DNA of 64,000 bases from Mytilus galloprovincialis (taxonomy: Eukaryota > Mollusca > Bivalvia > Mytilida > Mytilidae). The notes below the pieces were generated by a model, which was not told the DNA's origin, ran no database searches, and saw only the letters and a program-made list of their open reading frames with translations. The stretch is taken from positions 76,129,497-76,193,496 of the forward strand of contig NC_134844.1 of assembly GCF_965363235.1 (NCBI RefSeq). The letters run 5' to 3'. Shown here in pieces: positions 22,332-59,043 of the stretch; positions within the stretch are counted from its first letter, which is position 1, and each line of letters opens with the position of its first letter. The position numbers and the translations under genes were made by a program.

Positions 22332-22689
22332 CTGCAGAGAAAATATACAGTTATTATATTTCAGACTTACTTAGAAATGAAATGCAATTGGCCGTTTCAG
22401 ATTATAATGGACTATGGGTACTATCATTGTTCGTACCCCAAAATAAAAATAACGTCACGACATTGGTTGAATTGTTTGTACGTTTTCAGCCAATTACGAC
22501 GTAGTGGTGTACATTTTTGAAAATATTACTACGTATGCATTAGATTCTGAAATGGCGCATTGCTCAATGATGGGAAATAATCTGAAAACTAATTCAATGA
22601 AAAAAGGAAGATAAACTAAATCGTTCATAGAATTTGTGCTAATTAGATAATTTTCCACCTTGCTGTTTTTGGATTATGTATTATTTCAG

Positions 22690-22840
22690 TTAATATACCT
22701 CATTAAAGATACAAGGCTTATAATTGGTTACCAGAGACGTGCGGTTCGTCTGTATAACCTCATTGGTAGCAAAATCGGATACAAAGTTGAAGAGCACAAG
22801 AAATCAAAATTTCGAAAAGTTGTGCCTTATACGAATATAG
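22690..22840 (+). repeat. Old CGTCTGGCG-type repeat copy
   Basis: Diverged version with 'ACCAGAGACGTGCGGTTCGTC', 'GGATACAAAGTTGAAGAGCA' and 'CGAAAAGTTGTGCC'. It lies in the TLR-2 intron and underlies most of a 115-codon open frame (22660-23007), which is therefore not called as a gene. Confidence 0.6.
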
Positions 22841-23240
22841 AAATATATGAAAGTGTTAGAATACATTGTATCCACATATTTAGAAAAATTCGACATTTTT
22901 TAAACTCTAGACTTAAAGAAAAAGAACACACTAATGATATTTCAAATAAATTAAGTGTTGACAACTTGGCAGATGGCGAGGAAACGTTCACCAGAAGTGA
23001 TATCTAACCAATTTCGTTCTGAAGTGTTTTTGATCTATGTCCTAGAACATTGTCTGTTGCTTTCAGATCTTAAATAGGCGACGTCAATTTTATTCTAATC
23101 TTTTTTCTAGAGTCGGTGCCATTTACAGCTTGATCAACTGTACAGTTACTTGTATGTCATTTGTTGACCTCTAGATGTCCTTTGTCATTGGGTTGCTGTC
23201 TCAAGGTTACACTTCATTTGCATCCATTTAGTAGATGTCG

Positions 23241-23466
23241 ACATGCCATCTTTAATTGCAGTTGTCAAAACTTAATAAAACGGGTCTATACAGTTGTAAA
23301 CCAATGTTACAACTATAATGTCAAAACCAACTATAATTCTTATTTGGTCATGCCGCCTTTAATTGTTGTTGTCAAAACTTAATAGCGCGGGTTTATACAG
23401 TTGTAAACCAATTTTACAAAGACAACTTAAATGTCAAAACCAAATTAATTAAATTCGTATTTGGAC
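23241..23466. repeat. 108-bp tandem duplication
   Basis: Two units, 23241-23348 and 23349-23466, share 'GTTGTCAAAACTTAATA', 'TATACAGTTGTAAACCAAT' and 'ATGTCAAAACCAA'. Related single copies occur upstream of other TLR loci near 25510-25560 and 34770-34850, so the unit is part of the TLR upstream flank. Confidence 0.75.
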
Positions 23467-23783
23467 AATACAAATAATATTTAGAACCGACAGTCATTGA
23501 CAAGGTATCAAACTACAAAAGACACAAACATTCATTTCAAAATTAGATTAAATGTGTTTTGTGAGTATTGCACTGTACCTTTTTTTGTGGCCGAGCACAT
23601 TTGATTTTACTAGCTCCTGCATAACCGAGTATCTTTGTGCTTCGTTATTATCGTTGTGTCCAGTTAAATAGTTTTTTGGGTATTAACCTTTACCAAATTG
23701 TTTTGTGTGTTTCTTTGATGCGGAGTTAAACTAATTATGAAAGTTCTCACCTGAATCTGAGTGTATGAAAGTTCTAACGAGGG

Positions 23784-24450
23784 TATCACCAGCCCAGTAG
23801 TCAGCACTTTTGTGCTGACATGAATTATCATTGATATGGTAATATTCATAAATTAACTGTTTACAAAACTTTAAATTTTTCAAATACTAATAAAGGCTGT
23901 TCTACCTCAGGCATAAATTACCTTAGCTGTATTTGGAAAAACCTTTAGGAATTTTGGTCCTCAATGCTCTTCAACTTCGTACTTTATTTGGCATTTTTAA
24001 CATTTTGGATTCGAGCGTCACTTATAAGTCTTTTGTAGACGAAACGCACGTCTGGCGTATATACAAAATTGAGTCCTAGTATCTATGATGAGTTTATTTA
24101 CTACCACTGGGTCGATGCCACTGCTGGAGGAGATTTATTTCCCTAAGGGTATCACCAGCCCAGTAGTCATCACTTTTGTGCTGACATGAATTATCATTGA
24201 TATGGTTATATTCATTAATTAACTGTTTACAAAATTTTAAATTTTTCAAATACTAAGGCTGTTCTACCTCAGGCATAGATTACCATAACTGTATTTGGCA
24301 AAACTTTTAGGTGTTTTGGTCCTCAATGCTCTTCAACTTCGTACTTTGGCATTTTTAACCTTTTTTGGATTCGAGCGTCACTGATAAGTCTTTTGTAGAC
24401 CAAACGCGCGTCTGGCGTATATACAAAATTAAGTCCTGGTATCTATGATC
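23784..24450 (-). repeat. Two tandem CGTCTGGCG-type bivalve repeats
   Basis: Unit starts 'GGTATCACCAGCCCAGTAGTC' at 23784 and 24149, a period near 366 bp. Each unit contains 'CTACCTCAGGCAT', 'GGTCCTCAATGCTCTTCAAC', 'GGATTCGAGCGTCACT' and the 'CGTCTGGCGTATATACAAA' end. Between them is 'CCACTGGGTCGATGCCACTG', a familiar companion of this repeat in mussels. It sits in the TLR-2 intron. Confidence 0.8.
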
Positions 24451-24800
24451 AGTTTAATTGTATTTGAGTGTATTTAAGTACTCACTTGTACCTAAGTGTA
24501 TGAAGGTACTCACCTGTATCTGAGAGTATGACAGTACTCATTTGTATCTGAATGCTACTTGAGTATTCCGTTTTAAATATTGATCTCAGTTTAATAAAGT
24601 TGCAGCATTGCATACCAGCATAAGGAAGATTTAATTGTTTCATACAAAATTAGTTATGTCTTTCTCCCCATGATACGATTTTCTGAAAATAAACAAATAA
24701 ATACTTACACATGATACCAGTATCCAAAGAATAACAAAATAACACGCACACTTCTATAGTAATATAAAGTTACCAAACCCGGAACAAGATGTTTAACTTG

Positions 24801-24837
24801 ATATATTATATAAAATGATTGGTCGTAAATTTTCCCC
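24801..24837 (-). promoter_or_regulatory. Possible TLR-2 core promoter (TATA-like)
   Basis: About 90-100 bp upstream of the initiator codon, the minus strand reads ATTTTATATAATATAT (24816-24801), preceded by CCAATCA and, at 24837-24827, GGGGAAAATTT, which only loosely resembles a kappa-B site. Position fits a TATA box, but in DNA this AT-rich such matches are common. Confidence 0.25.
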
Positions 24838-25229
24838 AGTTTAAAGTTCACAAACGCTGTTAAATAATGCGTATTTAAAACGTTATTTATAATCTATAAA
24901 TAAATTTAGATTGTAGTCTTCTCATATCAAAGTGGCGTTAGTTGTGACTATTTGAGATGACTGCATCTGATTTACAGAGAAGTAATAAACAATTAATTAT
25001 CTTTTTTCTTGTTCTAAACAGAACAATTGTTATTCAAAAATAGAAATAGTGTCATTATCTCAAATTTCATTATGGAGTAACACCATCAGAACATGTTTTA
25101 TTGCTATGGATTAGGAGCGCAATCTTAATTGTGTCTATTTTATTGGCAAATTGATAAATGACCACTGCTTTGTATAGCAATATGAATCGCTGTAACACTA
25201 GTAGCCTGTCTTTATCAGGTGAAAAAAGG

Positions 25230-25340
25230 TCATCAAAGGTTCCAGGAGTATAATTTAATACGCCAGACGCGCGTGTCGTCTACATTAGACTCATCAGTGA
25301 CGCTCAGATCAAAAGAGTTATAAAGCCAAATGTTTTCCTG
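25230..25340 (+). repeat. CGTCTGGCG-type bivalve repeat, partial
   Basis: 'CCAGGAGTATAATTTAATACG', 'CCAGACGCGCGTGTCGTCTAC' and 'ACTCATCAGTGACGCTCAG' match 17001-17055. Inserted within TLR upstream-type flank: the sequence on both sides resembles 9157-9310. Confidence 0.7.
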
Positions 25341-27859
25341 ATATATCATAACACATCTATGCAAATATGAACTATACAAAGTTAGTAGACAATTGTCTTT
25401 ATCTTATTGAAGACAGTATATTTACCTTTAGATGTATTTTGTCGTTCGATTGCTGTATCAGGTACGCATACCATCATTTTAAGTCACATATATAGAAATC
25501 AATTTGTCGCCTCAATTCGTAGTTGTCGAAATTGAATCACTCGGGTTTAGACAGTTGTGAATTTTTTACAAAATCTAGAAAAATTACGTCGTCATTATCA
25601 AGTACCCAGTAATAAAAAAGCATTTATAAACAACAACTGACAAGCATAACTCATTTTAAAAGAAGTCAATCGGCTGCATCGTGAACTATGCACATCTCGA
25701 TATTCATTTCTCTCCAGGTTAACTTCTGCTTGAACAAAAGATAAGAAGTCAGAATGTATATAAAAAAAGGAAAAATTTGTACAAAATATGGTTTAGTCAG
25801 GTAAAGGGCGTGTGAACGTGAACTGCTTTATAAATTCTGGCCATTAGGAGAACGTCATGTTTATATAACCGTCAAAGTATTTCCCAAAAATTTGTATTTC
25901 TAGAGCAAAAAATGGCCCTTAAATACCCCTGTCTTACGGTTTAAAAATGTAAATGCACTGGGAATTTCAAATAAAAAAAAGAAAGTTTACCAGGGCCATT
26001 TCATTTTATATATTATTTACATGGTTGTTATGGTTATTGATTTTGATTACAGCTGAAAAGGCGTACAGAATGGGTCAATTAGTCCGACAACAAAATAGTA
26101 CAACAGTTCTTTGTTTCATTGGTTTAACAAGTCATTCTATAAATGCGTTTCCAATGTCAAGAGCCTATAATTGGGTATGGTTGTTGTCTGATACAGACGT
26201 TTCCTGTTGTTATTGTTTTTGAATTTACAGCAAAGCCGTTGGTTTACTTGTTATAATTGTTTTCACAATTATTATGATGGAACTTTTTAAAGTGTACCGT
26301 ATGGTATTGATCTTTTTAATTTGTAAAGGCCAGTCAGTGATGTAAAGATGATTTTACCTACGTTCCTTGTTTTTTTTTCAATTGTTCTCATATTGTTTAA
26401 GTCGTATTGTTTGAGTTTTTTTTCTTTTTCTCTGGGGAGGAGGATTGATTTATAAATTTTTAACGGCGTTCATTTAGTTTTCAATCCAGGTTCAACCCAC
26501 TATTTCCAAAAAAAATTCAATACCTTGTTAAAGTGAAAAGACGATTGTTCTTCATTCGTGTCGTTCGTTAATATAGTGGAGCGTCGAACTTATTAGATTT
26601 TGTGGACTTCTTTTTTTGAATTTACCTTGACGATCTAAATTTTTGTTAATACTTTTCAATCATTTGCAGGGTTTTAAGTCCATTTCCTTTGTTTTTGTTT
26701 ACTTTTCAATTAATCACATTTATGTTTTTAAACGTGTTTGTAGTCACAATTTGTCATTGGTTTCTCAGATGCGCAGCAAAGTCATCCTGTTTCCATAATA
26801 AACCCATTTTTACCTAACATTAGAGATCTGTAATTAATAATCATGCAATCTAATTCAGCAAAAAAAAGCCTAAACGGAGTTTTGAGATTAAAAAAGAAAA
26901 AAAATCTGTATGATTTGAATCATTGAAAATCAAACCTATATATTGAATACAGGTCCGTATTACACATTTAAGCATATATTTGTATATCTCACCTGTTATT
27001 ACTATTGATTAAATTGGTTGTAAACTGCCTTATTCATTTGTTATTTTACATTCGGGATAAAGACGTCGTTCATATTCAAATACAAGTTAACCACGTGCTT
27101 TGTAACTATATTTCTTTTATAACCACAGAAGATAAAAACATATTTAATGACAAAAGATACAATGATATCTGTTAAATCACCAACCTTGGGTCTCTTGTAA
27201 AACGGTTTTTAGTCATGCGTTAAATCAATATTTAAATCTAATATATATTACCTCTTCAAGGACGAAGTGTAAGGTCATTTCGTAATCAATTGTTGTTTCC
27301 ACATCAATGGATTTTTATATATATTTATGATATCTAAAGTACAGAAATCTTAATCATAACATGCACGAACGTCTGGATAGGTTTTTCTCATTCATGCCTT
27401 ATGTATTTTATAACCCGATTTTTCTTCGTTCTTTATTTCTTTGCACATTGCCAATTTTTGTCATTTCTTTATTATTTTTTTTGTTTTGTTTTATATCGTT
27501 ACTATTTATTCTCAATTATTTCAAATCCGTCAAATCATTATTCCTTTAGTAGCATGCACAAATAGTTTTGCTTTAATAAAACACATAAATGGGGCGGAGT
27601 TATATAGTTTAATTTAAGGTATAAGTCACAGTTGGGTATTTGCAAACAATTTACACATTGTGAAATAGGTGCTTAGATTCGGTGTGTAAATAATAACTAC
27701 AAACAGATTCCCGAAACAAAAATAGACAAATAAGAAAAAGAATTCCATTCATTGATGGTTACATTTCGGGAAAGGGTTTAATACTTTCATTGAAACGTTG
27801 GTATACTGGTGGACGAAGATAACAAAATAACCCGGTCTACCAACATTCTTCCAATATTT

Positions 27860-28340
27860 GATTGGTTGTTGGTTGCTAAACTTCCAGTGGCAATAAGTTT
27901 ATGCATATTCAGGACGAGAACAAATTGAGAATAAATATAATAGGTAAGTACTGTTATAGAGGCGTCCAGGATAAGGTTCGAAGAAATATAGTATGAGTAG
28001 AAATGAGGGTATATTGGATAGAGACAGAAATGTAGCCTTGCAACTGGTTACCAACGGACCCACAAAGAGTTGTTGAAAGGGTTCTTAACGTGAAAAGAGT
28101 GAGGCACTTTCTTTACAAAAGGCATCGGATTGAACATACCCGTTCTGGCAGTAAGTGGCTGCACATTTGTACATCCCGCACGGCCAATCTGACGCCCCAC
28201 TTTGGCGAAGGTTTTACTGCTGTTTGGGGGGGGGAGATCAATGGGGACCATACTTCTATTCATCAGTCACCCTTAGGGAGTCGATATTTGTGTATCAGTT
28301 TGGAACGTACCAGTCGACTATAATACATGTGTCAACAATT
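27860..28340 (+). mobile_element. Inserted GC-richer bivalve repeat of unknown class
   Basis: About 480 bp inserted relative to the third flank copy (compare 13385-13430). It has 'CTAAACTTCCAGTGGCAATA', 'GCATATTCAGGACGAGAACA', 'GAGACAGAAATGTAGCCTTG', 'GGCATCGGATTGAACATACC' and 'CATCCCGCACGGCCAATCTG'. I recognise these as a recurrent mussel repeat. Both strands have 70-83 codon open frames here, simply because the segment is less AT-rich. No protein family is recognised. Confidence 0.6.
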
Positions 28341-29828
28341 ATTTTTTATACGATACCTTTTTTTGGCATTCTGTTCTGTACCAATTTATACAACATACCT
28401 ACATGACATTGAAGTTTTAAATTTCAGAAATGTCACATCTGTGTACAATTTGTGACCTTCGCCACATTAAATAGTCAGCAGTGGTTTGGTGTTTAAGATT
28501 TGACGAAATATTTTGTGTTAACTGCAGAGAACACCACTATTAATCAAAAGGTACCAGAAAGCACAAAATTAAACCAACTGTTGATTATTAGAAATCACCT
28601 TGATAAGATTTCATTAGGCCAAATTTGTGCTTACCATTAAAAGATATATCAGATACTGTGCAAATGCACGACCAACTTCGATTCTAGAACATAAATTTCA
28701 ACTACCGCGAACACATGTTGGTTCTTAATACAGACACATCGTATCGGTCACCATAATATCTAAAGTATCGATTTCAGCCGTTCATCGTTAACAAATCTTT
28801 TGAATCATTATTTGTGTCACACACGCAGAGTGCGCGGATAATAGTAATGAAGTATTGAAGACTGTATAGCGCACAGTCTTCAGTCTCTTTTGTAGCGTTG
28901 TTTTTTTACTCTGGATTCATTTTTTTTGTGGATACAAATTGATGTGGATTATGGAATAATTTTTACTTCGTGGATATGTGATACAAGTCTATAAAAATTA
29001 TATGTCGTTGATTATTTAATTCAATGTTAACTTAACCCAACACATCCATGAATATCGTTATCAAAAATAAAGTTGTTTTTCTATTTTTTGCCAAGGCTCT
29101 GTAAATTTCTTTTCCATGAGTTTGAATATTCTCTTGGCTTCTTATTCTGCGGTTTATATGTTTTAAATGGACTATTATATTATTCATTCATCCGTATCTC
29201 TGTGATTTTTCGTCAGCTAAAATTATCGATCGCTATTCAACTTCATTATTTATTTGATCTTTGAACCTCGATGGCATGTCCATATTCCGACCTGGCATTA
29301 CTGTGCACTTACACATGATCTCCAGCTACTGAGAACGATCAATATAACAATACCAATAAAGGTCCTTATCTAATTTATTGTCAAAAGTTAGAAGGTGTAG
29401 ATTTAACTAGTTTGTATCATAACAGGCTACCAACGGAATAGAAATCTCGTCCGAATATCTGCCTAGTAGTTTTGAACAAATGAAGATCATCTTAACTTAC
29501 TAACATAAATGATGGGAAAAAAACCCAAAATATTTGTTAATTTTTTATTCAAATGTAAACTCTTTAAAGCACGTTATGTATTTAGTTTTATATACATGTA
29601 TGTATTTAGTATGACAAAATTGTAACACAAATGGTTTACTGACATGAAAAGGAAATCAAGTATTTATATTTGCTAAAGCAATAGTTTATCTTTATCAGAC
29701 GAAGTAATAATATTTACATTTTGTCTCTAAATAAAACATCTAACCTAACACAAATATAAACCCTAATGCATACCGGGAATCCTTGTACATAATAAACGAT
29801 ACATGGCGTTAAATAGAGGACATATTCA

Positions 29829-32391
29829 CTAGTAAGATTTGATATCCCTTATAAGCTGTTCCCAAAAGACAACGTCACCGTACTCATCATTTGGATACTC
29901 AATATATAATTGACACTTAACCATTTCCAGTATTTGAAGTGGAAGATCGCAAGCAGAAATTTGCTTGTAAAATACCAGGAAAAGAATGTTCTCACAATTG
30001 CGTTCATATATACTCTCCATTTTAGCCATATTATATTCGAACATACACCAGTACGAAGCTAAATAATTTGAAGACATTATGACAATTGTTTTCCAGCTGT
30101 AATGAATTGCAGATGTAATATTCGACGCCTATGCAAGCACAATTGAACCCCACCATTTTTCTCTAATTTGTGAAGAAGTGTTTTGTGGACAAATGTATGA
30201 TCTTCGTTGGCATATAACACGAAAGCATCGTGCATATATAGTCTGTCATCCTTGTTGACGGATTTAGGTTCGGGGTCATGCCATTTGATTTGACCATGTA
30301 GTAAAGAAAGCGCAGTTTCCATCTATATCTGTAAACAATACCACCACAAAGTATAACAATAAATATAAAAATTCCTGTAGTTACTCCAATTATTAAACCT
30401 TCATATGACATACATTCCTTTTGTATTGTTTCGTAAACTTCGCTAGGGTTTCGAAGAAGACTGACTGCGTTTTGTGATGTCTTACATTCGTATTATTCAC
30501 GAATCTTAAGTTCACGAATCTGAAGATACGTAGTGGTGTCAATTATCTAATTGACAAAAGACAGAGAACCACAATTACATACAAGATTATTTCCACTAAG
30601 ATCGACGGTTAGATTTGTGTTCATTTTGGCTATTAAGTCCAATCCGTTGATGGCATATTTACTCAGCATAGATATTCTATTTTTTCTTAAATTCAAAAAC
30701 ATGAGCTTTTTCATATGAGAAACTTTAAAGTTGATATCATCAATAATATTTTCACTGAGGTCTAATCTTTCTAGATGTTCTTGTTTTTTAAATAACATTT
30801 TTGGTATATTTGATATTTTTTTTTCGAGAGATTAATGTGAACTACGTTCTGAAGATTCTGAAATATTTCTCCATCGACATCCAATGGTAGAATGAGTCCC
30901 AACAGATTATTTTGTAGTAGTAAATATCTTAAGTTGATAAAGTCTTCACTGAAAAATATCTTTGAAACATTAGAACAAAAGTTCGAAGATAAGTCTAAAA
31001 CTGTCATGTTATTTACATTAGTTATAGGGCTGTCCATGTGTGCAAGATATTGTCACTAAAATTAAGATTTGTTATTTCATTTGTGATGAATCCGAATTTG
31101 GTATTTCAAATTTCATTTTGCTTGACGTAAGTGATATTTTTCTTAGTTTTCTTGGTACTGGCAGTCGGGCAACAAATGATCAAACTTCTTTATCTGGAAA
31201 TCAAAGCGTGAATGTAAATCAGACAACAAGTTATTTTCAGAATTCATTGTAAAAGTATCTGATTGAGAATCACATGTCTCTATGTAGCTTGTGGGAACAT
31301 TATGTGAAGAGGAAATTTCTGAAATATCTAAAGATTTTATTGGTAGTCTAACTAAACCAAAGAGATATTTGCCGAAGGAAAAAGCGTTGTCCCTTACATT
31401 CACACTTTCAAATGATTTCGGAAAGTACTTCGCGGCCCCATATTCTACTCTTGGAATACGGTTTCCAGCGGCTTCAAATCTAGCAAGAGATGTGTTTCTT
31501 AAATTCCGAATGTGGGATTTCTTCAGTAGTGTGCTCATTTCGAAAGTACAATGAATGTAGTTTACTTTCAGGATTTTGACTGCTGTGTATTGTAAATCTG
31601 CGGCTATATTTTCAAGCCATGCGAATCTCAAACAACTATTAAAAGACACATCTCCGAAATATTTTTCATACTTTCAAATGTTCCTTTGTAGATATAATGT
31701 ATTCTGCATTTAGACAGATTGATATGGGTTAATTGAGAAAGAGACAAGAATGTTGCCTCTGTAAGTATGTTCATTGTGCAATTACCAGTAGAACCGGATA
31801 GATCTAAACTTCTTAGGTGTTTCAAGTGTATAAAATTGTCAGTAAGAACTGCAATTTTGTCCGATACCCAATCTATCGACAGTGATTCTAGTGTCCGAAG
31901 TCTTTATAAATCTGGCAAGAACGAAGTGTGGAAATTATTTTTAATATTCAAAATCTTCAAGTTCTCCAAAAAATGAAAGGCAGAACTTTCAAACGACATG
32001 TTTTCATTTTTCAAATTGTTGGCGCTGAGATCTAACGAAAGTAAATTTTTGAGTCCTTTGAACGTGTTTTTGCGTATTTTACTTATTCTATTGAAAGACA
32101 GATCCAAAAACTTCAATAAATGATTTCCTTCGAAGATTCCATCTTGTATTGAACTGATAGTATTATTTTGTAGCGATAAATCTTGAGGATTCTTTTGTAA
32201 TCTAGGTATATGAAGCACATTTTTGTTTGAACAATCTGCTTGAACTTCTTCTGAATCAAGAATGTTTGTGCAAATACAGGAACTAGCGAACTGACATTCT
32301 GTCCATTCCTTCATCTCATGTTCTCTGTTGTAGTCACAACTAGCGTGAAGTATAAAAGCAGCAACCAGGAAATACGAACGTTTAATGGTCC
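29829..32391 (-). pseudogene. TLR-3: heavily decayed Toll-like receptor, main exon
   Basis: Closest relative of TLR-1, with the same domain order: signal segment, LRR N-cap (CQFASSCIC), LRRs, C-cap (NNLVCNCGSLSF), membrane segment and TIR remnants (MHDAFVLYA, HRR, FW). About ten breaks are visible: TAA for Trp near 31904, TAG for Trp near 30548, a 4-nt loss near 31650, single-base losses near 31170, 31100, 31030, 30820 and 30290, a small insertion near 30495, and a 28-nt deletion near 30126 that removes the BB loop (FLPGN). The acceptor TGCAG|GG at 32391/32392 is intact and an initiator exon is present at 34095. It cannot make a TIR receptor. Confidence 0.92.
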
Positions 32392-33464
32392 CTGCATAGA
32401 AAATATGCATAATTACGATTTTATTTGTCTTAGATAGATGTGATGGTAATAATAAATGAAATTAATATATGTTACGAAGGAAAAAAAAGCTAGAAAAAAT
32501 AATTAAATGGAAATTTTAAAGCTAAACTAGTTTTTTTAAACATGCAAACCATATAGTTTTGATGTTTGTCAAGCGATATGACGTTTGTACATATATCCTT
32601 TTGGATTTGGGTTCTCAATTCTTTACAACTTTGTGCTTTTTTTTTTTGCCTTACAATTTTTTTATATTATTCTTAATTCAAGCGTGACTTATGCGTTTCT
32701 GATTGTACAAATACAAAATTGAGTTTTTCGTAAATATCGTTAGCCTTTTGTGTAATATGCCTACTGAGCTTTATGTATATTCTCGAATATTTTTAAAGAT
32801 TACTTTCCATCTTGAGTTTGTAATTCATCTTTTTTAATCAAAATTGCTCATCGAATATTAAAGCCTAGCTCAGCGAAAGTTTCCTTTATATCATAAATGG
32901 AACTCGAAAGAAATCAGTTGAAAGGTTAAATCAAATATGAGCTAAAGAACATTCAATTAAAAGATTTCTAAATACTTTTGGATTATATAGCTAATATGGA
33001 AAAGAAGAGGTGGTACCAATGTTAAAACTCTTCAAAAGAGACTGAATAACACAAAAATTATAAACATCTCAAACATCTATAGGTCACCGTTCGGCATTCA
33101 ATAATGAGAAAAAACAAACTATGAATTATTTTATAAAGACCATAGTGGTTCAATCTATTGGAAGTTAGATACTCACAAAATTCACAGAAGAATTATTGTA
33201 TCCTTAAAATTTAATGTCAATACAAGTGCTTATTATTTGGCCATTATTCTGTCTGGAACGAACATTCAGCAGCATTGGAATATAATTAGGAATAATATTA
33301 GATAGATTCGGCATAATTGTTATTGGAACAACTTTCCAGCAGTCAGCAACTGATATAAAATTAAGCAACTATAGGTCAACGTACGTTATCATGAGCAAAA
33401 CCCATACTGGTTAGCGAAGCTATACAAAATTCGAGATGACAAAAGTAAAACAGTTCAAACTAAA

Positions 33465-33900
33465 ATGATTTCGACTTGTGTCATGTACAAAGCAATTAAC
33501 AAAGCACAAGCAAATAACCACGGACTTGGGACAGGCGTATACAGGATGTTATAATGTCAAAAATGTTTGCGGGTACCCATCAAATGCCTAACCTTGGACA
33601 GCATACATGAGCACACCATACACATCGGTTGAATTGGGTCAAACTCCTCAAATCGATAATTTTAAGATAAGACAAAAATTACTGATATCAGTGTAAACGT
33701 AGTTACAAAATTTAGTTTATGTGCCTGTTCAGCATAGTGTTTATGACAGATCTTTACTATTTTCTCTTTAATTTATTCCCACTCTTTTTCTTGTTCCGTG
33801 CGATTTAGAGCATGTCTTAAACATAGACACTTCTTTAATTTGTTGCAATATTTGACTTCTAATGTCTTCTCCTATTAACGTTTCTGTCTCAGAAACATAT
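33465..33900. repeat. TLR upstream flank shared with 10.7-11.15 kb
   Basis: Matches 10715-11150 ('CTTGTGTCATGTACAAA', 'GGTTGAATTGGGT', 'GCCTGTTCAGCATAGTGTTTA') up to about 33880, where the TLR-3 initiator exon region begins and the TLR-1 side has been rearranged. Confidence 0.7.
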
Positions 33901-34094
33901 TTCCCTTAGCCAATTTCATCGTAGTTGTCGAGATTAAGACAGTTATGAATGAATCTTTCCGTTACAATTTAATGTGATTCAAACGTGCATTTGATTTTTT
34001 ACAGAGTTATCTCCGTGTAGTGTTGTCTACCTCCATCATTTAGGTTGGCATCATATGAGGTTTTTTTTAATCAGATAGCATATTTTGTACTTAC

Positions 34095-34098
34095 ACAT
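34095..34098 (-). other. TLR-3 initiator exon end with donor
   Basis: The minus strand reads ATG T|GTAAGT (ATG 34098-34096, donor from 34094). Joined to the acceptor at 32391 (1703-bp intron) it gives Met-Trp-Thr-Ile-Lys-Arg in the main frame. This is the same phase and layout as TLR-2. Confidence 0.75.
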
Positions 34099-34109
34099 TG
34101 TCAGGTTTA

Positions 34110-37337: not shown

Positions 37338-37339
37338 TA

Positions 37340-38799: not shown

Positions 38800-41341
38800 T
38801 TAGCAGGATTGAATAGTCCTTTTAAGCTGTTCCCAAAAGACAACATCTCCGTACTCATCATTTGGGTACTCAATGTAAGATTGACAGTGAACCAGTTCGA
38901 GTATTTGAAGTGGCAGATCGCAAGTAGAAATTTGCTTGTAAAGTACTAGAAAAAGGATGTTTTCACAATCGCGCTCATATATACCCTCCATCCTAGCCAT
39001 ATTATATTCAAACATACACCAGTATGAAGCTAAATAATATGGAGACATTATGACCATTGTTTTACGGCTATTGTGAATTGCGGATGTGATATTTGTGGCG
39101 ATATCATTCCCAGGTAAGAAGTTCCGCTTGTGCAAACATAACTGAATTCCACCATCTTTCTCTAATTTATGAAGAAGTGTATTATGGACAAATGTTTGAT
39201 CTTCGTCAGCATATGAAACGAAAACATCATACATATACATTCTCTGATCTTTATTGTCCGATTCATTATCAGTTTGATGCCATTTGACCTTGACTATGTA
39301 GTATAAATAACGTAGTTTCCATCTAAATCTGTAGCTGATTCCACCAAAAAGAATAGAAATGAAAATCAATATTCCTGTCGTAATTCCAATTATTATCCCG
39401 TCATATGACATACATTCCTTTTGAAGCGTTTTAAATATTTCTGTAGGGTTGTGAAGAATGATTGTATCATTTGACATTTTACATTCATATGTGTTTCGTC
39501 GATAAAGATGTGTAGGTGTGGTTACCATCCATTTGACGAAAGATAATGAATCGCAGTTACATACAAGATTATTGCTACCAAGATCAACGGTGAAATTTGC
39601 ATTACTTTTGGCGACTAAGTCAAACTCTTTCATGGCAAATTGACCCAGTTTAAATATCTTATTATTCTTAACATTAACAAACATAAGCTTTTTCATATGC
39701 GAAACTTGAAAGTTGATATCTTCGATCAGGTTTTCACTCAGGTCTAATCTTTTTAAATTCTGTTGATTTCTAAAAAACATTTTTGGTATATTTGCTATTC
39801 TGATTTTCGAAAGATTAATGTAATCAACGCTATGAAGATTTCTCAAAATTTCACCGTTGGTGTCTTTTGGTAAAACGAGTCCTAAGAGGTTGTCTCGAAG
39901 AATTATCTTTTTCAAATTTTTGAAATCTTCACTGAAAAATCTCTTTGAAACATTAGAACAAAAGTTCGAAGAAAGATCTAAAGAGATAAGATTTTCAACA
40001 TTCTTAACCGGTCCTGTCCATGTATGCAAGACATTGTCACTGAAACTAGCTCTTTTAATGTTATTTTTCTTAAAACCGAAACTTGGTATTTCATAATTCA
40101 GTGCACTTGATCTCAATATAAATGTATTGAGTTTTTCTGGAACCTGAACTTTGAAATTATTTTGATAGGGGTTCCATTGCCTGTAGGCGGACATGATTGA
40201 AAATAACCAATTGTCATCGTAAATCAGTGTTTCAGTGTCTTTTCGAGGTATGCATTCCTCTAAGTAGCCAGTGAGCACACTGTGGGCAGAAAAAGAATCA
40301 GAAACATCAAGAAATGTTATATTTAGACCAAATACATCAAGCATATATTTGCCAATAGAAAAAATGTTGTCTCTAAAAGAAGCACTTCTGGCGGACTTTG
40401 GAAAATATTTTAATGCGCCATATTCTATTCTCTGAATACGATTTCCATCGGCTTCGAATCTCTTTAGAGATGTATTTCTCAAATTGGATATATGAGAAGT
40501 TTTTAGTATTGTACTCATTTCGAACAAACCATGAATATAGTTTACTTTTAGGATTTTAATTTCTGAATGTTGTAAATCCGCAGTGATATTTTCAAGCACT
40601 TTGAATCTCAAACATGTGTTAAAGGAAATGTCGAGCTCGGATAGATTTCTCATATTCTTAAAAGTTCCGTTGTATATAAATTGTATATGGCACTTAGATA
40701 AAGTTAAATTTGTTATTTGAGGTAAAAATGAAAAAGTCTCCGGTGTAAGTATATTCATCTTGCAATTACCAGTATGACCAGAAAGTGTTTTAAATATGCA
40801 AAATGTTTACCAAGATCTGCAAATGTGTCAGAAACAAAATCCATGGACAGCGATTCCAAAAATAAAAGTTCAGATAAATCTGGCATAAATGAAGTGTTGA
40901 AATTCTTTTTCAAATACAAATTCTTTAAGTTTTTCAGATAATAAAAAGTTGAAGAGCCAAACCTGTCTTCGTGTTTCAAATCGTTGTGGCTGAGATTTAG
41001 GGAAACTAAATTGTTTAATCCTTTGAACGAGTTTTTTCTTAGTTGTTTGATTCTATTAAAAGACAAATCCAAGGACTCCAATAAAATACTTTTTTCGAAA
41101 ATCCCATCTTCTATCATAATTATATTGTTATTTCGGAGAGATAAATCCTGAAGATTATTCGTCAGCCTAGATATATTGGTCAGACCTTTATCAGAACAAT
41201 CTGCTTTAAAAAGTCCTGAACTGGGAACTCTACTGCATTTACAATAATTCGAAAACTGGCATGCTTCCTGCTGGAGGAATTTATAATTTTCGCAACAAAC
41301 TTGTCTCATAAAGGCAACAACAAGGCTGTAATAAATGATCC
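38800..41341 (-). pseudogene. TLR-4: Toll-like receptor with one 16-nt deletion
   Basis: Same TLR architecture as TLR-2. The 3' part (40758-38800, 652 codons) covers most LRRs, the C-cap, the membrane segment and a complete TIR (YDVFVSYA, HKRNFLPG, FW). The 5' part (41341-40755) has the signal segment, N-cap (CQFSNYCKC) and first LRRs. Near 40785, where relatives have 18 bases between LKH and SG.TGNC, only TT remains: a net loss of 16 bases that shifts frame. It is otherwise clean, so the break is young. The acceptor CTCTGCAG|GG is at 41341/41342 and an initiator exon at 42518. A segregating null allele or an assembly fault cannot be excluded. It groups with TLR-5 (HKRNFLPG, HQTDN after the membrane segment). 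Confidence 0.88.
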
Positions 41342-41463
41342 CTGCAGAGAAAATATTCGAATGTTTATCTTTACAAACAAAAATAATTAAGCTACATGAT
41401 TAAAGTCCGTGTTTGACTGTAACAAATTGAAGAGTTCGTTCTTATGTTGTACTGTTATACCGC

Positions 41464-41815
41464 TGTCCCAGGTTAGGGGAGGGTTGGGATCCCGCTAACA
41501 TGTTCAACCCCGCCACATTATTTATGTATGTGCCTGTCCCAATTCAGGAGCCTGAAATTCAGTGGTGGTCGGTTGTTCATGTGTTACATTTTTGTTTTTC
41601 GTTAATTTTTTTTTTTACATAAATAAGGCCGTTAGTTTTCTCGTGCGAATTGTTTTACATTGTCTTATCTGGACATTTTATAGCTGACTATGCGGTATTT
41701 GTTCATTGTTGAAGGCCGTACGGTGACCTATAGTTGTTAATGTCTGTGTCATTTTGGTCTTTTGTGGATAGTTGTCTCATCGGCAATCATACCACATCTT
41801 CTTTTTTATATGAAA
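41464..41815 (+). repeat. Full-length-looking bivalve interspersed repeat in TLR-4 intron
   Basis: Starts 'GTCCCAGGTTAGGGGAGG', then 'GGGATCCCGCTAACATG', 'AACCCCGCCACATTATTTATG', 'AAGGCCGTTAGTTTTCTCG', 'ATAGCTGACTATGCGGTA', 'AGGCCGTACGGTGACCTATAG' and ends 'CAATCATACCACATCTTC' plus a T-rich tail. I recognise it as one of the commonest mussel repeats. It is non-coding and its class (SINE or retroelement tail) is uncertain. It lies within the TLR-4 intron, antisense to the gene. Confidence 0.8.
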
Positions 41816-41983
41816 AATATTTTTTTATTTTAATCTTTGAAATTTCCATTGAGACATGTCAAGGAAATATCTCAAAAGACCTTAAATTTTGCGATGTCTA
41901 TACGATAAAAAAAATCTAAGTCAGTCCCTTATTATTCCCAAGTACATAAAGTAAATACTTCATACAAATTTGATTTTGCCAAG

Positions 41984-42080
41984 ATGTGGATTGTTTGCCT
42001 TCTTGTATTTTACTTTTTACCACAAAAATCAGATGTGAAGAATAAAAAGGACGAAAACATAAGTGATATTCAAAGAGAAG
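41984..42080 (+). CDS. Candidate first exon of a small secreted protein
   Basis: ATG at 41984 opens MWIVCLLVFYFLPQKSDVKN, a short hydrophobic signal-like segment followed by a charged tail. It ends at a donor-like GAAG|GTACAC at 42080/42081. It lies inside the TLR-4 intron on the opposite strand. Its phase (1) does not match the exon at 43214; a possible 36-nt exon at 42283-42318 with good splice sites stays open in phase 1 but does not resolve the mismatch. No family recognised. Could be chance. Confidence 0.2.
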
Positions 42081-42517
42081 GTACACCATCTAATTTGCAT
42101 CTTCTTTTTTTTTTCTTCATTTTTTTCAAAATCATTTGAGCTTAACATGGCAACTTTTCCAAATCTTTTTGAAAATTCCAGCACCCTCAATGTCATTCAA
42201 ATATAAGACAGATTTGATATCCCATTAACGAGATTGCTATTTTTATCAGAAAGAGGTTAATTTTGTTTTCATTTTAATTAGATTACTCAAATATCAGAAA
42301 TAATAACAGAAAGAAAAGTATAAAAATTAATTGCAATGGCGGCCACTACAAATGTTATCAATAAAAAAAGTTACGCATTATCTTTTAACATATATCTATA
42401 ATTATCTATTATGATAATAGTGTCTTAGTGTCAGAAAGATACACAAACAGCACATTTGAATTTTTTTTAATACCTGGGAATGTTGTTAAAAAAAAACAAA
42501 ATGAAAATCATACTTAC

Positions 42518-42521
42518 ACAT
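42518..42521 (-). other. TLR-4 initiator exon end with donor
   Basis: The minus strand reads GG ATG T|GTAAGT (ATG 42521-42519, donor from 42517). It is joined across a 1176-bp intron to 41341, giving Met-Trp-Ile-Ile-Tyr-Tyr in the signal-peptide frame. A TATA-like stretch (TATAAAAAATAC, minus strand) lies about 50 bp upstream near 42568-42580. Confidence 0.75.
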
Positions 42522-43213
42522 CCTAAAGGCAATGTTGCAAACTGATAGGAATTAACATTAAGTTGTATTTTTTATATTGTGAATGAGACAGCAAGTAATA
42601 ACTCACCAAATCGCCGGAACATTGATCTAAAAATAATACGTGTGAAATATTCATGCCATGAAAGTGTGAGAACAGAACTGCAAGATTTAATTTATTTTAA
42701 TTTATTTTAATTTATTTTATGGCTACAATACTTTTTGCGATTTTTTAAAAGCTGTTAAAACATTTGGATTACTGCATTTGATTGTGCCGATTTGGGTGGT
42801 ATATAAAAGACAAATGAAAAAATACGATTTTGAAGTGTTCGGTCAGAAAAAAAAGTTCTGCTTTTTTTGTCATCCCTTCGCTTTATTAAAACAGCATACT
42901 TTATCGGCTTTATTTTTTTTGTCTCCTTCTCCTGTTTGTTAATATGAATAAAAAACGGAAGTTTTCGCAACAAAAGCACATCACTTCCAAACAAAGAAAA
43001 TTGTTAACGGAAACCGCATTTAAACTTGAAAAGCTATTATGAACCAAATGTTTACTTTATAATGTTGGCCTTGAATATGATGTATTCAAATTTCGCTACT
43101 GAATTTAAAGTAAACGAATAGCGCAAGTTCCGTACCAAATTATAATCATAATAAAGAAAAAATAATAATTTTTGTAAAAACAGAAAACGAAATCTCACAC
43201 ATCTTTTTCACAG

Positions 43214-43569
43214 CTGTAACATTATAATGGTTGTTTGGGAACATATTTTTGATGCGCTTAAAAAATATAATGTACTTAATAACACAGAACATACTCCAAT
43301 GAGAGAAGAACTTATCATACTAGGAATGTATAATTACAACAAAAAGTACAATGTCATCAACTAATACGATTATGAATACAGTTAAATGGATTATTTTGGA
43401 ATGTAGGAATATTATCTAATATCAGTCTAAAAGTTTTATTTCCAGTCAATTGATATTATATGCAAAACGGGAACTGGGCAGTTTAATTGAATCTATGGAT
43501 AAATCATTATCTTCCAAAAAAGAAAATATTGCAGATGAAATAAAACTTATAATAAATCTTATACATTAG
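43214..43569 (+). CDS. Candidate two-exon small gene, 100-bp intron
   Basis: Acceptor TCTTTTTCACAG precedes 43214. The exon stays open to AAAAA|GTACAA at 43345. A 100-bp intron ends TTTTATTTCCAG at 43445, and the next exon continues in the same frame (MREELIILGMYNYNK then N-QLILYAKRELGSLIESMD) to TAG at 43567-43569. Starting at the first internal Met (MVVWEHIFDALKKY) the product would be about 80 residues, helical and lysine/glutamate-rich. The in-frame join supports a gene, but the region is AT-rich and I recognise no family. Confidence 0.25.
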
Positions 43570-45160: not shown

Positions 45161-45162
45161 TA

Positions 45163-45716
45163 ATGAAATTTAATACAAGTGAGAGGTTTAGCGCTTTAAA
45201 ACCAGGTTCAATCCACCATTTTCTTCATTGCCTGTACCAAGTCAGGAATATGATAGTTGTTTTCCATTGTTTAATATGTTTTATCTTTTGGTTTTGCCGT
45301 TTGATTAGGGACTTTCCGTTTCGAATTTTCCTAGGAAATCGGTATTTTTGTGATTTTTCTTTTTTGCTTATCGTTAAATATTTTTTTATTAGTCAGACAA
45401 ATGTTTTTTTCTCATTTGAAATGTTTTACATTTTAACTTTAACTGACTTAACGATATAGCTTTTATTTATTGCTGAGTGCCGTGCAGTTACCTTTTAATA
45501 CATTGAAAGTCAGGCCAGTCATCCTTTCATCAAGACTTCTCGTTTGAATTGTTTTACATTGTCTTATTGGGGCCTTTTATAGCTGACTATGCGGTATGGG
45601 ATTTGCTCATTGTTGAAGGCCGTACGATGACCTATAGTTGTTAATGTCTGTGTCATTTTGGTCTTTTGTGGATAGTTGTCTCATTGGCAATCATACCACA
45701 TCTTCTTTTTTATATT
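45163..45716 (+). repeat. Two adjoining bivalve interspersed repeats
   Basis: The first part (about 45180-45450) has 'AAACCAGGTTCAATCCACC' and 'GTACCAAGTCAGGAATATG', matching 55520-55585. The second (about 45535-45716) repeats the 3' half of the 41464 element from 'GAATTGTTTTACATTGTC' to 'CAATCATACCACATCTTC'. A 98-codon open frame in the first part is incidental. Confidence 0.7.
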
Positions 45717-45719
45717 ATA

Positions 45720-47957
45720 TACTTAGGGCAACCGCTGTAGATGTTCCTTAGTTTAAATAAGCATATCATTAACAGTGGTAAACGTTGTCGTTATTTGAAA
45801 ACATAGAACGTCAATATTATAAATGACAGAAAAGAGCTAGAGGACAAAGGTACCACCAAAGGGATATTCAAGTTCACGTGTCGACAATAAACTGACAACG
45901 TCACGGCTAATATATCAAGACCAACAGAAAATTAATAGTGCACAAAACACAACATAGAAAAATAGAGACTATAAAGCAACACGAACTCCTTTTAAAAAAC
46001 TGTTGGTGATCTCAAAAGCCAGGTCAGCCTGAGATATCAGAATTCTGAGTGTTTCCATTATTATAACATTATTCATAAAATTGATTCAAACTTCTTCTGG
46101 AGTATTTAAGTTCATTCCCTGTTTTTGATAGGTTTCAGTCATCTTAACTATATCCATACAGTCTTCATTGGTCCTTTCGGGTTTTTTTCTAGCTCATTTG
46201 TCAGTTGTGAATATCATTATATCAATGAATACAGTAGTTGTTGACAGCAAGAGCTGGTCATGTTCAATTCCTCTGCTACTGGACGTACGATCATCTCAGA
46301 TGTCAGTACTTCAGATCTGGCATGAAAATCTGGATATTGTTTGATTGATACTTCGTGTTATAAAATTTAGAAAAAAAATCCTTTCAAGCAAAACGCCGAT
46401 TCCGTGTCTGGATTTGTATTCTTCTACTGTTGTATTAGGTTTAAGATCTAAAATTTAGTTGACTCTTGCTTGTTGAAGATACAATTATTCTCGCATCTCG
46501 TTGTATACACTGGTTACGCTATTGTATAAATTATATCTAACTTTGAGAACATTGGTCAATTTTTAGATACACTTTTCTAACTCAATAACCATATAATCAT
46601 GCTGTTTTAAGAGATGATGCACATAGTATTTGCCAGTGCATATTAAGCACCCATATATATTTTTTGGCCTATTGAGAGAGACACTTGTTTCTGTTATTGC
46701 AACATAAATTAACAACAGTCGTGACAATATTGGTTTTATTTTACAAAAAGAATTTAGAATGAATGATTAAAACGTTGATGTCAGGATGTAATACATATGT
46801 ACAAATATCCTATTTCAATACAAGGACAACATAATTTTAATGTTCCCCAATAATCAAGGCATGGTTACATGTATCTAGTTAAGATTATTAGTACCATGTT
46901 TAGGCGCCAATATCAAATATATTTTGGCGTAATTGCCAATGAAACAAGTATCAAATATATTTTGGCGTAATTGCCAATGAGACAAGTATCCAAGTATCCA
47001 AAGGTCAAATGAAGTTAATGTAGTATAAGTGATATACCGACTATTAAATATACAATGTATCATATTATTGATGATATCATTCTGTTATTAACTTAACACC
47101 GAAAAATCAACAGCAATCACCAATTATTACATCTGGTTCTAGAAAGTTTAGAACAAAATATGAGTTCTTTCAATTAGAAAAACACCACCTTTTGCTATAA
47201 TATTTAATGCTACTAGCTAGAAATATTCATCTAAGTAGTGTAGATTAATTTAAACGTTTGCATTGATATCATGCGTCTAGTATCAATTGAAAGATTTAAT
47301 TGTTATCAAATATCGTTCTCAAATATTATATCGTATCCCTCAATGAAGTTAAAACAAACATTTAAAGTTAACAATGTATTACATTAAAGTTTGTAAACAG
47401 ATTTTGAACCAAACTAAATAACATGTTTGTGGCCATACATTGCCATCGTGTTTGATGAATAGAAGAGAACTCTTTCTTTGTGAATAAACAATTCCGGACC
47501 CCGCTAATATTCGTTAAAATTGTAAGTTAACTTAAAGAGAGTGTCGTAGCAAACTCCTCGCGCGGAATTCAATTAAACGTCTCTACACCGACCAGACGAG
47601 GCTGTGCCTCTTCACATAGCACATAGCTATACGGAAGCCTAACTGTTAGCAGGGTTGTACAGACGAACTGGAGCATTGTTGAGAGTCGAAAAGGTATACA
47701 TGTGTTATGCCCAAATTGTTTTGGTATGGACATCAAAGAAATTTTATAACTCATTAAGTGTGGATTTTGTATTCAAAAACAAGGCAGACAAATCTAACAT
47801 TCTATATACTTGAACAGTATGAAGAAAGTTTAAATCTAAAACCCCATATCCTTCTATTATATTGTAAGAACAGCTAATCTTTAAATACAAAAACAAGAAG
47901 TCCAATGCAAGAAAAAAGTAATGGTATATGGCAAGCCAAGCCGACAACGGATCATCG
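45720..47957. other. Spacer downstream of TLR-5, no gene seen
   Basis: Contains a 38-bp tandem pair at 46911-46986 ('TTTTGGCGTAATTGCCAATG') related to the GATTGCCAATGAGACAA tails. Nothing else supportable. Confidence 0.45.
46911..46986. repeat. 38-bp tandem pair
   Basis: Units 46911-46948 and 46949-46986 differ only at GAAACAAG versus GAGACAAG. Confidence 0.85.
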
Positions 47958-50520
47958 TTATGATTTACCTGCCATTTGAAGCTGTTCCCAAAAGACAACA
48001 TCGCCATGCTCATCATTTGGATACTCAATGTAAGATTGACAGTGAACCAGTTCGAGTATTTGAAGTGGAAGATTGCAGGCAGAAATATGCTCGTAAAATA
48101 TCAGGAAAAGGATGTTCTCACAATTGCGCTCATATATACTCTCCATTCTAGCCATATTATATTCAAACATACACCAGTACGACGCTAAATAATTTGACGA
48201 CATTATAACAATTGTCTTTCGACTATTGTAAATTGCAGAAGTGATATTAGTGGCGATGTCATTTCCGGGTAGGAAATTCCGCTTGTGCAAGCACAACTGA
48301 ATTCCTCCAATTTTCTCTAATTTATGAAGAAGAATATTGTGGACAAATGTTTGATCGTCGTCGGCATATGAAACGAAAGCATCATACATATATAGTCTTT
48401 CATCGATGTTGTCTGAATCATTATCGGTTTGATGACATTTGACCTTGACCATGTAGTATATATAGCGTAGTTTCCACCTATACCTGTAGCTGATTCCGCC
48501 AAGAAGAATGAATATAAACATTAATATTCCTGAAGTTAATCCAAAGATTATACCTGCATAGGACATACATTCCTTTTTTAGGGTTTCGTAAACTTCTTTT
48601 GGATTGCGAAGGAATATTATTGTATCATTTGATAGTTTGCATTTATATTTCTTTCTCCGATTAAGACGTGTAGGAGTCTCTATCATCCATTGAATGAAAG
48701 ACAGGGAATCACAATTGCATACAAGATTATTGCCACCCAAATCAATAGTTAGATTCGTGTTTGTTTTTGCAACCGAGTCCAATGCGTCCATTGCAAACTT
48801 ACTGAGTTTAGATATTCTATTATTTCGTAGATTCAAAACCATCAACTTTTTCATATGAGAAACTGTAAAGTTGATATCATCGATCATGTTTTCACTAAGG
48901 TCTAAATTTTCTAAACCGTATTGTTTTTTAAAAAACAGATTTGGTATATTCGTTATTTTATTATTTGAAAGATTGACTGTGCCGACGTTGTGTAGATTCT
49001 GAAATATATCTCCGCCACTATCTGTCGGCATCACGAGTCCTAGAAGATTGTTTTCGGTTGTAAGTTATCTAAATTTATAAAATCTTTACTAAAAAATGAT
49101 TTTGAAACATTGGAACAATAGTTCGATGATAAATCTAAAAAGGTCAGGGTTTTCACATTGGTTACTGGTCCTGTCCATGTATACAAGACGTTGTTGCTGA
49201 AACTAAGACTGTTTAATTCATTTTCAGTAAAACTGATTTTTGATATTTCATATTTCAGTGTACTTGATGACATCAAAAATGTTTTTAGTTTGTTTGGAAC
49301 TGGAATAATGAAATCCGAATCCTTAGATTTTGTTTTCACGTAAAGAGACACTTCGTCAATCCAGTTGTTTTCGGACTTCATTCTAACAGTATCTTCTGAA
49401 GCAATACATTCCTCTATGTAGGATGTAAAAATATTGTGAGAGGAAAACGATTCAGAAACATCAAGGAACGTGATACACATATTCATTAAATCAAACAGAT
49501 ATTCCCAAATAGAAAAAACGTTGTCCCTAAAATTACCACTTTTGAAGGAGTCTGGAAAATATTCTAACGCACCAGATTCTATCCTCTGAATACGGTTTCC
49601 TGCGGCTTCGATTCTAACCAGTGATGTTTTATTTAGATACCAAATGTGAGAAGTCTTCAGTATTGTGCTCATTGCAAAAATACCATGAATATAATTTACT
49701 TTCAGGATCTTTATTGCCGAATACTGCAAATCTGTGGTTATATTTTCAAGTGCATCAAATCCCAAACATGTATTGAGGGAAACGTCTAGCTCGTAAATAT
49801 TTTTCATATTTGTAAAGGTTCCAATGTAAATATATTGTATTTGGCATTTTGATATGTTTAAATGAGTTATTTGAGGCAAGAATAAGAATGTCTCCGATGT
49901 TAGTATATTCAATTTGCAATTACCAGTAAAACCTGATAGATCTATAATTGATAGGTTTTTACAATACACAAATTTTTCATCAAGAATTGCAGTTTTGTCC
50001 GAAATGAAATCCATTGACAACGTTTCAAGGGATTTTAGTTTCGATAAGTCTGGTACGAATGGAGTGTTGGAATTATTTTTCAAATTCAAGCTTTTCAAGT
50101 TTTCCAAGAAATAAAAGGATGCAGAATCAAACGATATGTTTTCATAATTCAAATTGTTGTTACTGAGATCTAAATGGACTAAATTGTGTAGTTCTTTAAA
50201 TGATTGGTTTCTTATTTGTTTTATTCTATTAAAAGACAAATCCAAGGACTTCAGCAAATTGTTTTCCTCGAAAATACCATCTTCTATTATACTGATATAA
50301 TTCTTTTGGAGATATAAATCTTGAACAAAGTTCGGCATCCTTGGAACACGGAATAGGTTTCTGCCGTCACAATTTGCTACAAGTAACTCTGAACCGGGAA
50401 CTGTTTTGCAGACACAAAATCTAGCAAATTGACATGCCTTCTGCGCATGGACTCCTGGATTTCCACAACATACTAGTAACACAAAAACAAGAACAAGGTG
50501 GTTGATAAGATTTATTTTCG
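47958..50520 (-). pseudogene. TLR-5: Toll-like receptor with a single-base frameshift
   Basis: Complete TLR layout: signal segment (INHLVLVFVLLVCC), N-cap (CQFARFCVC), LRRs, C-cap (NNLVCNCDSLSFIQW), membrane segment (about 48545-48480) and TIR (YDAFVSYA, HKRNFLPG, FW) ending TAA at 47958. The only visible fault is near 49040-49060. Relatives have 12 bases coding LLQN after FINLR.L; here there are 11 (CAACCGAAAAC), which shifts frame into a stop at 49040. The acceptor TTTTTGCAG|CG is at 50520/50521 and an initiator exon at 51945. With just one base missing, this may be a very recent null, a polymorphism or a consensus error; if an error, the locus is a second working receptor. Confidence 0.88.
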
Positions 50521-50599
50521 CTGCAAAAAGAAACACATTTATTTACAACAAAAATCTGGTATATTGGGATTGTTCCTTGTTTGGTGTTGTAAATTAACT

Positions 50600-50828
50600 G
50601 TTTACAAAACATTAAATGTTGCCAATAAAATAAGTAGTCTTTACCTCAGGAATAGATAACCGAAGCTATATTTTTTTTAAACTTTGAATTTCGTGTGTCC
50701 TCAATTCTCATGATTCTTTTATACTTCGTACTCTATTATTTTTTTTAATTTTTTTTTTAAAGATATTTGATCGTCATTGATAAGCAGTTTTGCTCGTCTG
50801 GTATACAAAATATTCCTTGTATCTATAA
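50600..50828 (-). repeat. Degenerate CGTCTGGCG-type repeat
   Basis: 'CTTTACCTCAGGAATAGATAA', 'GTGTCCTCAATTCTC', 'ACTTCGTACT' and 'GTCATTGATAAGC...CGTCTGGTATACAAAAT' align with 23890-24440. The minisatellite begins exactly where this repeat ends ('TATCTATAATGACTTTATATG'). Confidence 0.6.
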
Positions 50829-51574
50829 TGACTTTATATGTTATCCTACTATATGATCACTTGTCATTGTTTTATGACTTAATATGTTATCCTACTATAT
50901 GATCATAGGTCATTGTTTTATGACTTAATATTTTATCCTACTATATGATCATATGTCATTGTTTTATGACTTAATATGTTATCCTACTATATGATCATAT
51001 GTCATTGTTTTATGACTTAATATGTTATCCTACTATATGATCACTTGTCATTGTTTTATGAATTAATATGTTATCCTACTATATGATCATAGGTCATTGT
51101 TTTATGAATTAATATGTTATCCTACTATATGATCATATGTCATTGTTTTATGACTTAATATGTTATCCTACTATATGATCATATGTCATTGGTTTATGAC
51201 TTAATATGTTATCCTACTATATGATCATATTTCATTGGTTTATGACTTAATATGTTATCCTACTATATGATCATATGTCATTGGTTTATGACTTAATATG
51301 TTATCCTACTATATGATCATATGTCATTGGTTTATGACTTAATATGTTATCCTACTATATGATCATATGTCATTGGTTTATGACTTAATATGTTATCCTA
51401 CTATATGATCATATGTCATTGGTTTATGACTTAATATGTTATCCTACTATATGATCATATGTCATTGGTTTATGACTTAATATGTTATCCTACTATATGA
51501 TCATATGTCATTGGTTTATGACTTAATATGTTATCCTACTATATGATCATATGTCATTGGTTTATGACTTTTCC
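50829..51574. repeat. 46-bp minisatellite, 16 units, with a 4-unit higher-order pattern
   Basis: The unit core 'TTATCCTACTATATGATCAT' recurs every 46 bp from 50845 to 51535. Units 1-4 and 5-8 repeat the variant order ACTTG, ATAGG, ATATG, ATATG after GATC, and units 5-6 also share TATGAATT. From unit 8 on, GTCATTGGTTT replaces GTCATTGTTTT and units are nearly identical. ATATGATCATAT inside each unit is a perfect palindrome. It lies in the TLR-5 intron. Confidence 0.95.
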
Positions 51575-51944
51575 TATCTTATTGGTTTGTGCACGTGAGT
51601 ATTCCACACTTTCTCTTTAACACGAGTGAAATTCTTTTGTTGATTGAAGATCAGACCCGTTAGTAACTGTTGTCTTCATGCCAAGTTAAGAAAATTGCTT
51701 TTCACAGTACTAATTCATCTCAGTTTTGTTTGCAGCTGGGTTTTTTTTTTTGCAAGACGGAGACAGGTTGTTTTGGGGTACAATCAAGATCAAGAGTATT
51801 CATATAAGTTTCGATTAATTTGAATAGCATTGCGAAACAAATGTTGAAAAAAATCGTAAATGACCGGAAGAAATGTTACAGTATTGACAGAAGATCAACA
51901 TACAGCATTTCATATTTGTTAATTTTGAAACAAATAATACTCAC

Positions 51945-51948
51945 ACAT
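51945..51948 (-). other. TLR-5 initiator exon end with donor
   Basis: The minus strand reads ATGATG T|GTGAGT (second ATG 51948-51946, donor from 51944). Joined to 50520 across a 1424-bp intron that contains the 46-bp minisatellite, it gives Met-Ser-Lys-Ile-Asn-Leu in the main frame. Two consecutive in-frame ATGs are available. Confidence 0.72.
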
Positions 51949-59028: not shown

Positions 59029-59043
59029 TGAAGATAATCGAAA

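Follow-up and report, generated by a model that had tools for sequence, protein, structure and literature searches.

A TLR reading frame without its own start

The five TLR copies in the window (the whole stretch of DNA analysed, 64,000 nucleotides, C7:76129497-76193496) include only one unbroken main exon, that of TLR-2, and this exon raises the question of where translation of the receptor begins. The TLR-2 main exon (19762..22331, minus strand) runs unbroken to its stop and encodes a putative signal peptide, LRRs, a hydrophobic segment and a TIR domain. Its frame extends back to a stop in the intron with no ATG on the way, and therefore the AUG must come from another exon. An in-phase AUG is provided by the sequence ATGT at 24712-24709. 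Joined to these four bases, hereafter the tip, TLR-2 reads as 857 residues without internal stop, with a methionine at residue 1 and the next at residue 208. The preliminary description of the locus had likewise noted the lack of an early methionine, and its warning that gene finders would miss the start is sound for this gene. The predicted protein possesses an LRR ectodomain (LRR_8, 3.9e-33, four stretches) and a cytoplasmic TIR domain (TIR, 3.5e-19, residues 721-820), and the best-scoring solved chains by sequence (PDB) were TLR7 (6.7e-33) and TLR3 (3.8e-32). The hydrophobic stretch after the tip is a putative signal peptide, and the hydrophobic run recognised by eye before the TIR domain is a putative transmembrane segment.

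Our main reading, to which we give a probability of about 0.85, is that TLR-2 belongs to a clade, located in a tandem cluster, in which exon 1 ends in ATGT and is followed by one phase-1 intron and a large exon, and that this arrangement arose once, was inherited and has been kept. The observations that carry it are the anatomy, frame, phase and distribution of the tips and the single group formed by their genes in a tree; from these we infer splicing and use of the tip ATG. The receptor would be encoded by two exons, the first ending in ATGT and the second, a large one, holding all the rest. Removal of the phase-1 intron would bring ATGT against the large exon, which starts with GG in most copies and with CG in TLR-5, so that the joined codons would read Met-Trp or Met-Ser, followed by the signal peptide, and translation would begin at the tip ATG.

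Tips, introns and main exons in the window

At four loci of the window, all on the minus strand, the preliminary description had placed ATGT directly at a consensus donor, and all four sites were present at those positions. The TLR-2 tip forms the 3' end of exon 1 (24709..24712; donor GTAAGT at 24708-24703) and is followed by a phase-1 intron of 2377 bp (22332..24708). In TLR-3, the tip (34095..34098; donor GTAAGT) precedes an intron of 1703 bp (32392..34094) and a broken main exon (29835..32391) with five matching pieces and 9 stops, which is a pseudogene as assembled. The TLR-4 tip (42518..42521; donor GTAAGT) is followed by an intron of 1176 bp (41342..42517) and a main exon (38800..41341) with one frame break near 40.78 kb. 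The TLR-5 tip (51945..51948; donor GTGAGT), preceded by another in-frame ATG, is followed by an intron of 1424 bp (50521..51944) and a main exon (47958..50520) with one frame break near 49.07 kb, at the same place as the only stop in the matched piece. TLR-1 has a broken main exon (3987..6547, minus strand) that retains a phase-1 acceptor. The window copies other than TLR-2 are pseudogenes or mis-assembled.

The four intron lengths given earlier were thus reproduced from the sequence, and the proposed phase-1 joins, with first exon bases at 22331, 32391, 41341 and 50520, were confirmed at 4/4 window junctions. Spliced in this way, the predicted N-termini (MWNINLPYILVPVFVLL, MWTIKRSYFLVAAFIL, MWIIYYSLVVAFM and MSKINLINHLVLVFVLL) all consist of a methionine followed by a hydrophobic stretch; the signal peptide that splicing was said to restore agrees with this pattern and is best called putative. 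The central claim of the preliminary description, that the TLR start codon occupies a 4-nt tip on a separate exon, has good support from the sequence, with splicing as its predicted step.

Elsewhere in the window, a 585-aa open frame (57310-59067, minus strand) with weak B-box matches (E ~0.0008, below curated cut-offs) is possibly a TRIM-like gene. Scanned against Rfam at gathering thresholds, the window gave 0 matches.

The tandem TLR cluster on C7

The window is part of a tandem TLR cluster with 11 close members at C7 76.11-76.47 Mb. The search with TLR-2 of the mussel's own genome, which comprises 1.385 Gb in 331 contigs, yielded 60 match pieces; as 53 of 1031 first-look candidates were scored, the TLR counts given here are lower bounds. 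Five members lie in the window (J, TLR-1; A, TLR-2; K, TLR-3; E, TLR-4; I, TLR-5) and six outside it (B, C, D, F, G, H). The upstream DNA read came to about 5.4 kb in eight of the members (with 1.3 kb of the G stretch unread), and was longer for J (13.0 kb) and shorter for C (4.2 kb) and F (4.6 kb). At another location (C4:52623400-52625499), a foot-protein-like frame of 770-786 aa made of decapeptide repeats was observed. A repeated foot-protein decapeptide matched one locus of the genome with 100% identity over 60 residues, in support of the genus Mytilus.

The tip was present in nine of the 11 cluster members, including 4/5 in the window and 5/6 outside. Within the stretch searched, each of these nine loci had exactly one sense ATGT/GTRAGT (tip/donor), with introns of 778 to 2653 bp, and a phase-1 acceptor was found at the same protein position in 11/11 members. 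The spliced N-terminus was open in 8/9 tip-bearing members. The broken copy G kept the tip and its donor (L026 51-54), and its codon 2 at the junction is TGA, where most copies have TGG. Main exons were unbroken in three of the 11 copies (A, B, D) and broken or interrupted in the other eight. In C, about 590 bp lie between two main-exon matching halves in different frames (L003 913-1504), representing an insertion or a second intron.

No tip was found in the ~13 kb upstream of TLR-1 or in the 5.4 kb upstream of H. Two near matches were considered and are not claimed as tips: ATGA/GTAAGA at 16417 for TLR-1, which is at chance level by a hand estimate, and ATGG/GTATGT for H, which is weak. Upstream of TLR-1, homology to the TLR-3 intron ends 218 bp short of the expected place of the tip, and the stretch expected to hold it is lost or replaced. 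Parts of the TLR-3 intron occur there, upstream of the acceptor (window 6056-11146, minus strand), in two to three copies that are about 90-93% identical.

Conservation of the tips and recent copying

As the search pattern itself fixed 10 of the conserved positions, only two positions outside it are free of this bias, and both were invariant: an A at -3 in 9/9 tips and an A after GTRAGT in 9/9, counted over related cluster copies that are not independent of each other. Upstream of the tip ATG, an in-frame stop occurred in 9/9 members, 6 to 165 bases away, and a second in-frame ATG was present in C, G and I (3 bases upstream) and in F (36 bases upstream).

Among the alternatives to an inherited and retained tip, the one that survives best, itself unlikely, holds that one locus was copied recently and that this alone accounts for the tips, with no constraint upon them. 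The tip flanks of A (TLR-2), B and C, which are 84-88% identical, are what such copying would leave, and the broken copies G and K still possess tips. The lack of any BLAST alignment between the tip flanks of E, I or K and those of another cluster member tells against it. So does the depth of the divergence, with dS of 0.8-1.2 between D, E (TLR-4), I (TLR-5) and the A/B/C/F group, a depth at which an unconstrained 10-mer would seldom be expected to persist in every lineage. These values come from a seven-row table of A, B, D and, through the longest open piece of each, C, E, F and I (with J, K, G and H outside it), in which the unbroken A, B and D had pairwise dN/dS of 0.22-0.30 at dS of 0.48-1.03. 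Because the tips lasted through dS of ~1, the retention of tip and donor suggests selection or constraint. The preliminary description had argued that the shared junction was not just recent duplication; the deep dS and the diverged flanks bear this out, and the qualification needed is that the junction was shared by descent through duplications of different ages.

Possible starts within the intron

According to a second and somewhat less probable alternative, initiation takes place at an in-frame ATG within the supposed intron, from a promoter near the main exon, and the tips are fossils. Such an ATG was indeed found just before the acceptor in J, K and D (19 bases) and in H (25 bases), and D is unbroken; in these four genes it could serve as a possible alternative start. 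However, an in-frame intronic ATG is lacking in seven of the 11 members, the unbroken A and B among them; A would be left without an AUG before residue 208, and unused tips would not be expected to last through dS of ~1. The intronic ATGs that the preliminary description had listed for TLR-1, TLR-3 and TLR-5 are in frame in the first two, 19 bases before the exon, but the suggested intronic start is wrong for TLR-5, because that ATG is out of frame. Methionines inside the signal-like stretch were observed in B, D and E (spliced residues 9, 15 and 13, respectively).

Chance expectation

The motif ATGTGTRAGT occurs at 5 sites in the window, all on the minus strand, whereas 100 dinucleotide shuffles gave a mean of 0.41 and a maximum of 2 over both strands. 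In the antisense direction, ATGT/GTRAGT was found 0 times in 68,253 positions upstream of the cluster genes, a count that includes 1,262 unread ones. On the basis of the shuffles and the antisense control, a chance origin of the tips was rejected. The least probable alternative, in which coding would begin in some other, undetected upstream exon and the ATGT sites would be accidental or a meaningless inheritance, can draw on the unplaced 5' end of exon 1 and on a decoy showing that chance matches occur, but it is hard to reconcile with five motifs against 0.41 expected on both strands, with one tip per locus and an A at -3 in all nine loci, and with a phase that fits in 9/9 and an N-terminus open in 8/9 (G has a stop).

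The decoy, ATGT/GTAAGT at 29313..29316 (minus strand), was considered as a fifth tip and rejected; it lies downstream of TLR-3 and is not judged a TLR first exon, because a 94% identical stretch downstream of TLR-1 is without the motif. This stretch of at least 213 bp (window 29304-29516 downstream of TLR-3 and 3457-3669 downstream of TLR-1, minus strand), a 62-base piece of which also occurs near 19.4 kb, downstream of TLR-2, is perhaps a 3' flank that the duplicated genes have in common.

Other mussel TLRs and the origin of the arrangement

The position of the start codon was compared with that in 31 other mussel TLRs, whose initiators, the in-exon ATG ahead of the signal-peptide-like stretch, were chosen by eye (the cluster, L029 with its broken frame and unfetched match pieces were left out). 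By a strict rule, an acceptor lay within 60 nt before the in-exon ATG in 24/31 of these genes, compared to 2474/12400 random points (20%). Among the seven failures, L011, L017, L019, L025 and L039 have an acceptor-like sequence by eye, and L009 and L013 do not. L012 passes the rule, but with a site 46 nt upstream, which is doubtful. In the trio L009, L012 and L013 (C7 29.36-29.38 Mb), no convincing acceptor closely precedes the ATG, which sets it apart from nearly all others examined. In the near relatives L007 and L008 the distance from acceptor to ATG is 7 nt. The distance from the start to the first LRRNT cysteine is 28-33 residues in the cluster (10/11 measured, J and H among them with an assumed tip) and 21-34 residues in the other TLRs (29/31 measured).

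In a tree of 27 rows, representing 27 of 30 loci (L026, L028 and L029 left out; J and K without their own locus in the set; L036-L046 too short), the seven cluster rows formed one side of a 100/100 branch, needing a single change on this unrooted topology. The inherited arrangement would accordingly be placed ahead of the cluster duplications, having originated once and then been passed on and retained, and shared descent is the ordinary cause that explains the distribution of the tips.

As the other TLRs mostly have an in-exon ATG shortly past an acceptor, the ATG of the cluster clade lies on the opposite side of the first intron. The simplest reading of these sequences would be a single first intron common to the family, with the start codon downstream of it in most genes and upstream of it in the cluster clade; both the homology of the cluster and other TLR first introns and the direction of the change are what we infer from this pattern. 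The likely history is that the start codon moved across the first intron, from its 3' edge to its 5' edge, because in the rest of the family the intron in most cases appears to stop a few bases short of the in-exon ATG. More tentatively, at somewhat less than even odds, there may have been a single side-switch in which the in-exon ATG decayed and was superseded by a new one, four bases ahead of the donor, so that receptor synthesis would now require removal of the first intron; the layout resembling that of TLR7/TLR9 would then possibly be independent. Codon 4 is ATC, ATT or ATA in 7/11 cluster genes, a weak hint that it is the decayed old ATG, isoleucine being common in such stretches.

These results likely supply the N-terminus for a clade of mussel TLRs whose start gene finders would cut off or misplace, and they suggest that members of a single invertebrate TLR family may carry the start codon on either side of the first intron. 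The mussel TLRs thereby offer a natural series for the study of start codons moving across introns, as well as a comparison with the similar layout of vertebrate TLR7/TLR9. No new mechanism is revealed; the observation is a correct and useful one on gene structure, and its explanation is ordinary, namely that a first intron adjoining the start codon was inherited.

Comparison with known systems

In vertebrate TLR7 and TLR9, an intron breaks the gene directly after the ATG, in phase 0. The mussel layout is of the same kind, with the break one base later (phase 1) if that vertebrate phase is right. In the passages available, the ATG of TLR7 is described as separate from the leader-peptide exon (PMC3192768) and the intron of mammalian TLR9 is said to lie in the start codon (PMC4425437). 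The vertebrate layout is not uniform, because human TLR6 and TLR9 are called intronless in the corresponding passage (PMC2702086) and intron number is described as varying in fish tlr9 and tlr22.

Tandem expansion of TLRs is common to the mussel and the oyster, where 83 TLRs include 57 in tandem arrays, in passages that are silent on start-codon position and TLR introns (PMC4346834). Among the open-licence papers listed on the gene structure of mussel or bivalve TLRs, no title or opening of an abstract concerned a start-codon exon, which is weak evidence of absence, and the passages of the M. chilensis genome paper (PMC10137854) do not touch on one.

Start-codon introns, which immediately follow the initiating ATG, form a recognised class found in vertebrates, arthropods, fungi and plants (Nielsen and Wernersson 2006; PMC1626468), and the passages of that study describe them as phase 0, with a peak in proteins without signal peptides. 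The mussel TLR intron differs from the class so described in its phase 1, with a break after the fourth base rather than directly after the ATG, and in the presence of a putative signal peptide. It resembles the class in having the initiator ATG on an otherwise untranslated exon, judged by anatomy from the upstream in-frame stop in 9/9 members and the 4 coding bases. Overall, start-codon introns were already known, including those of vertebrate TLR7/TLR9, and the mussel case represents the same kind of layout in an invertebrate TLR clade.
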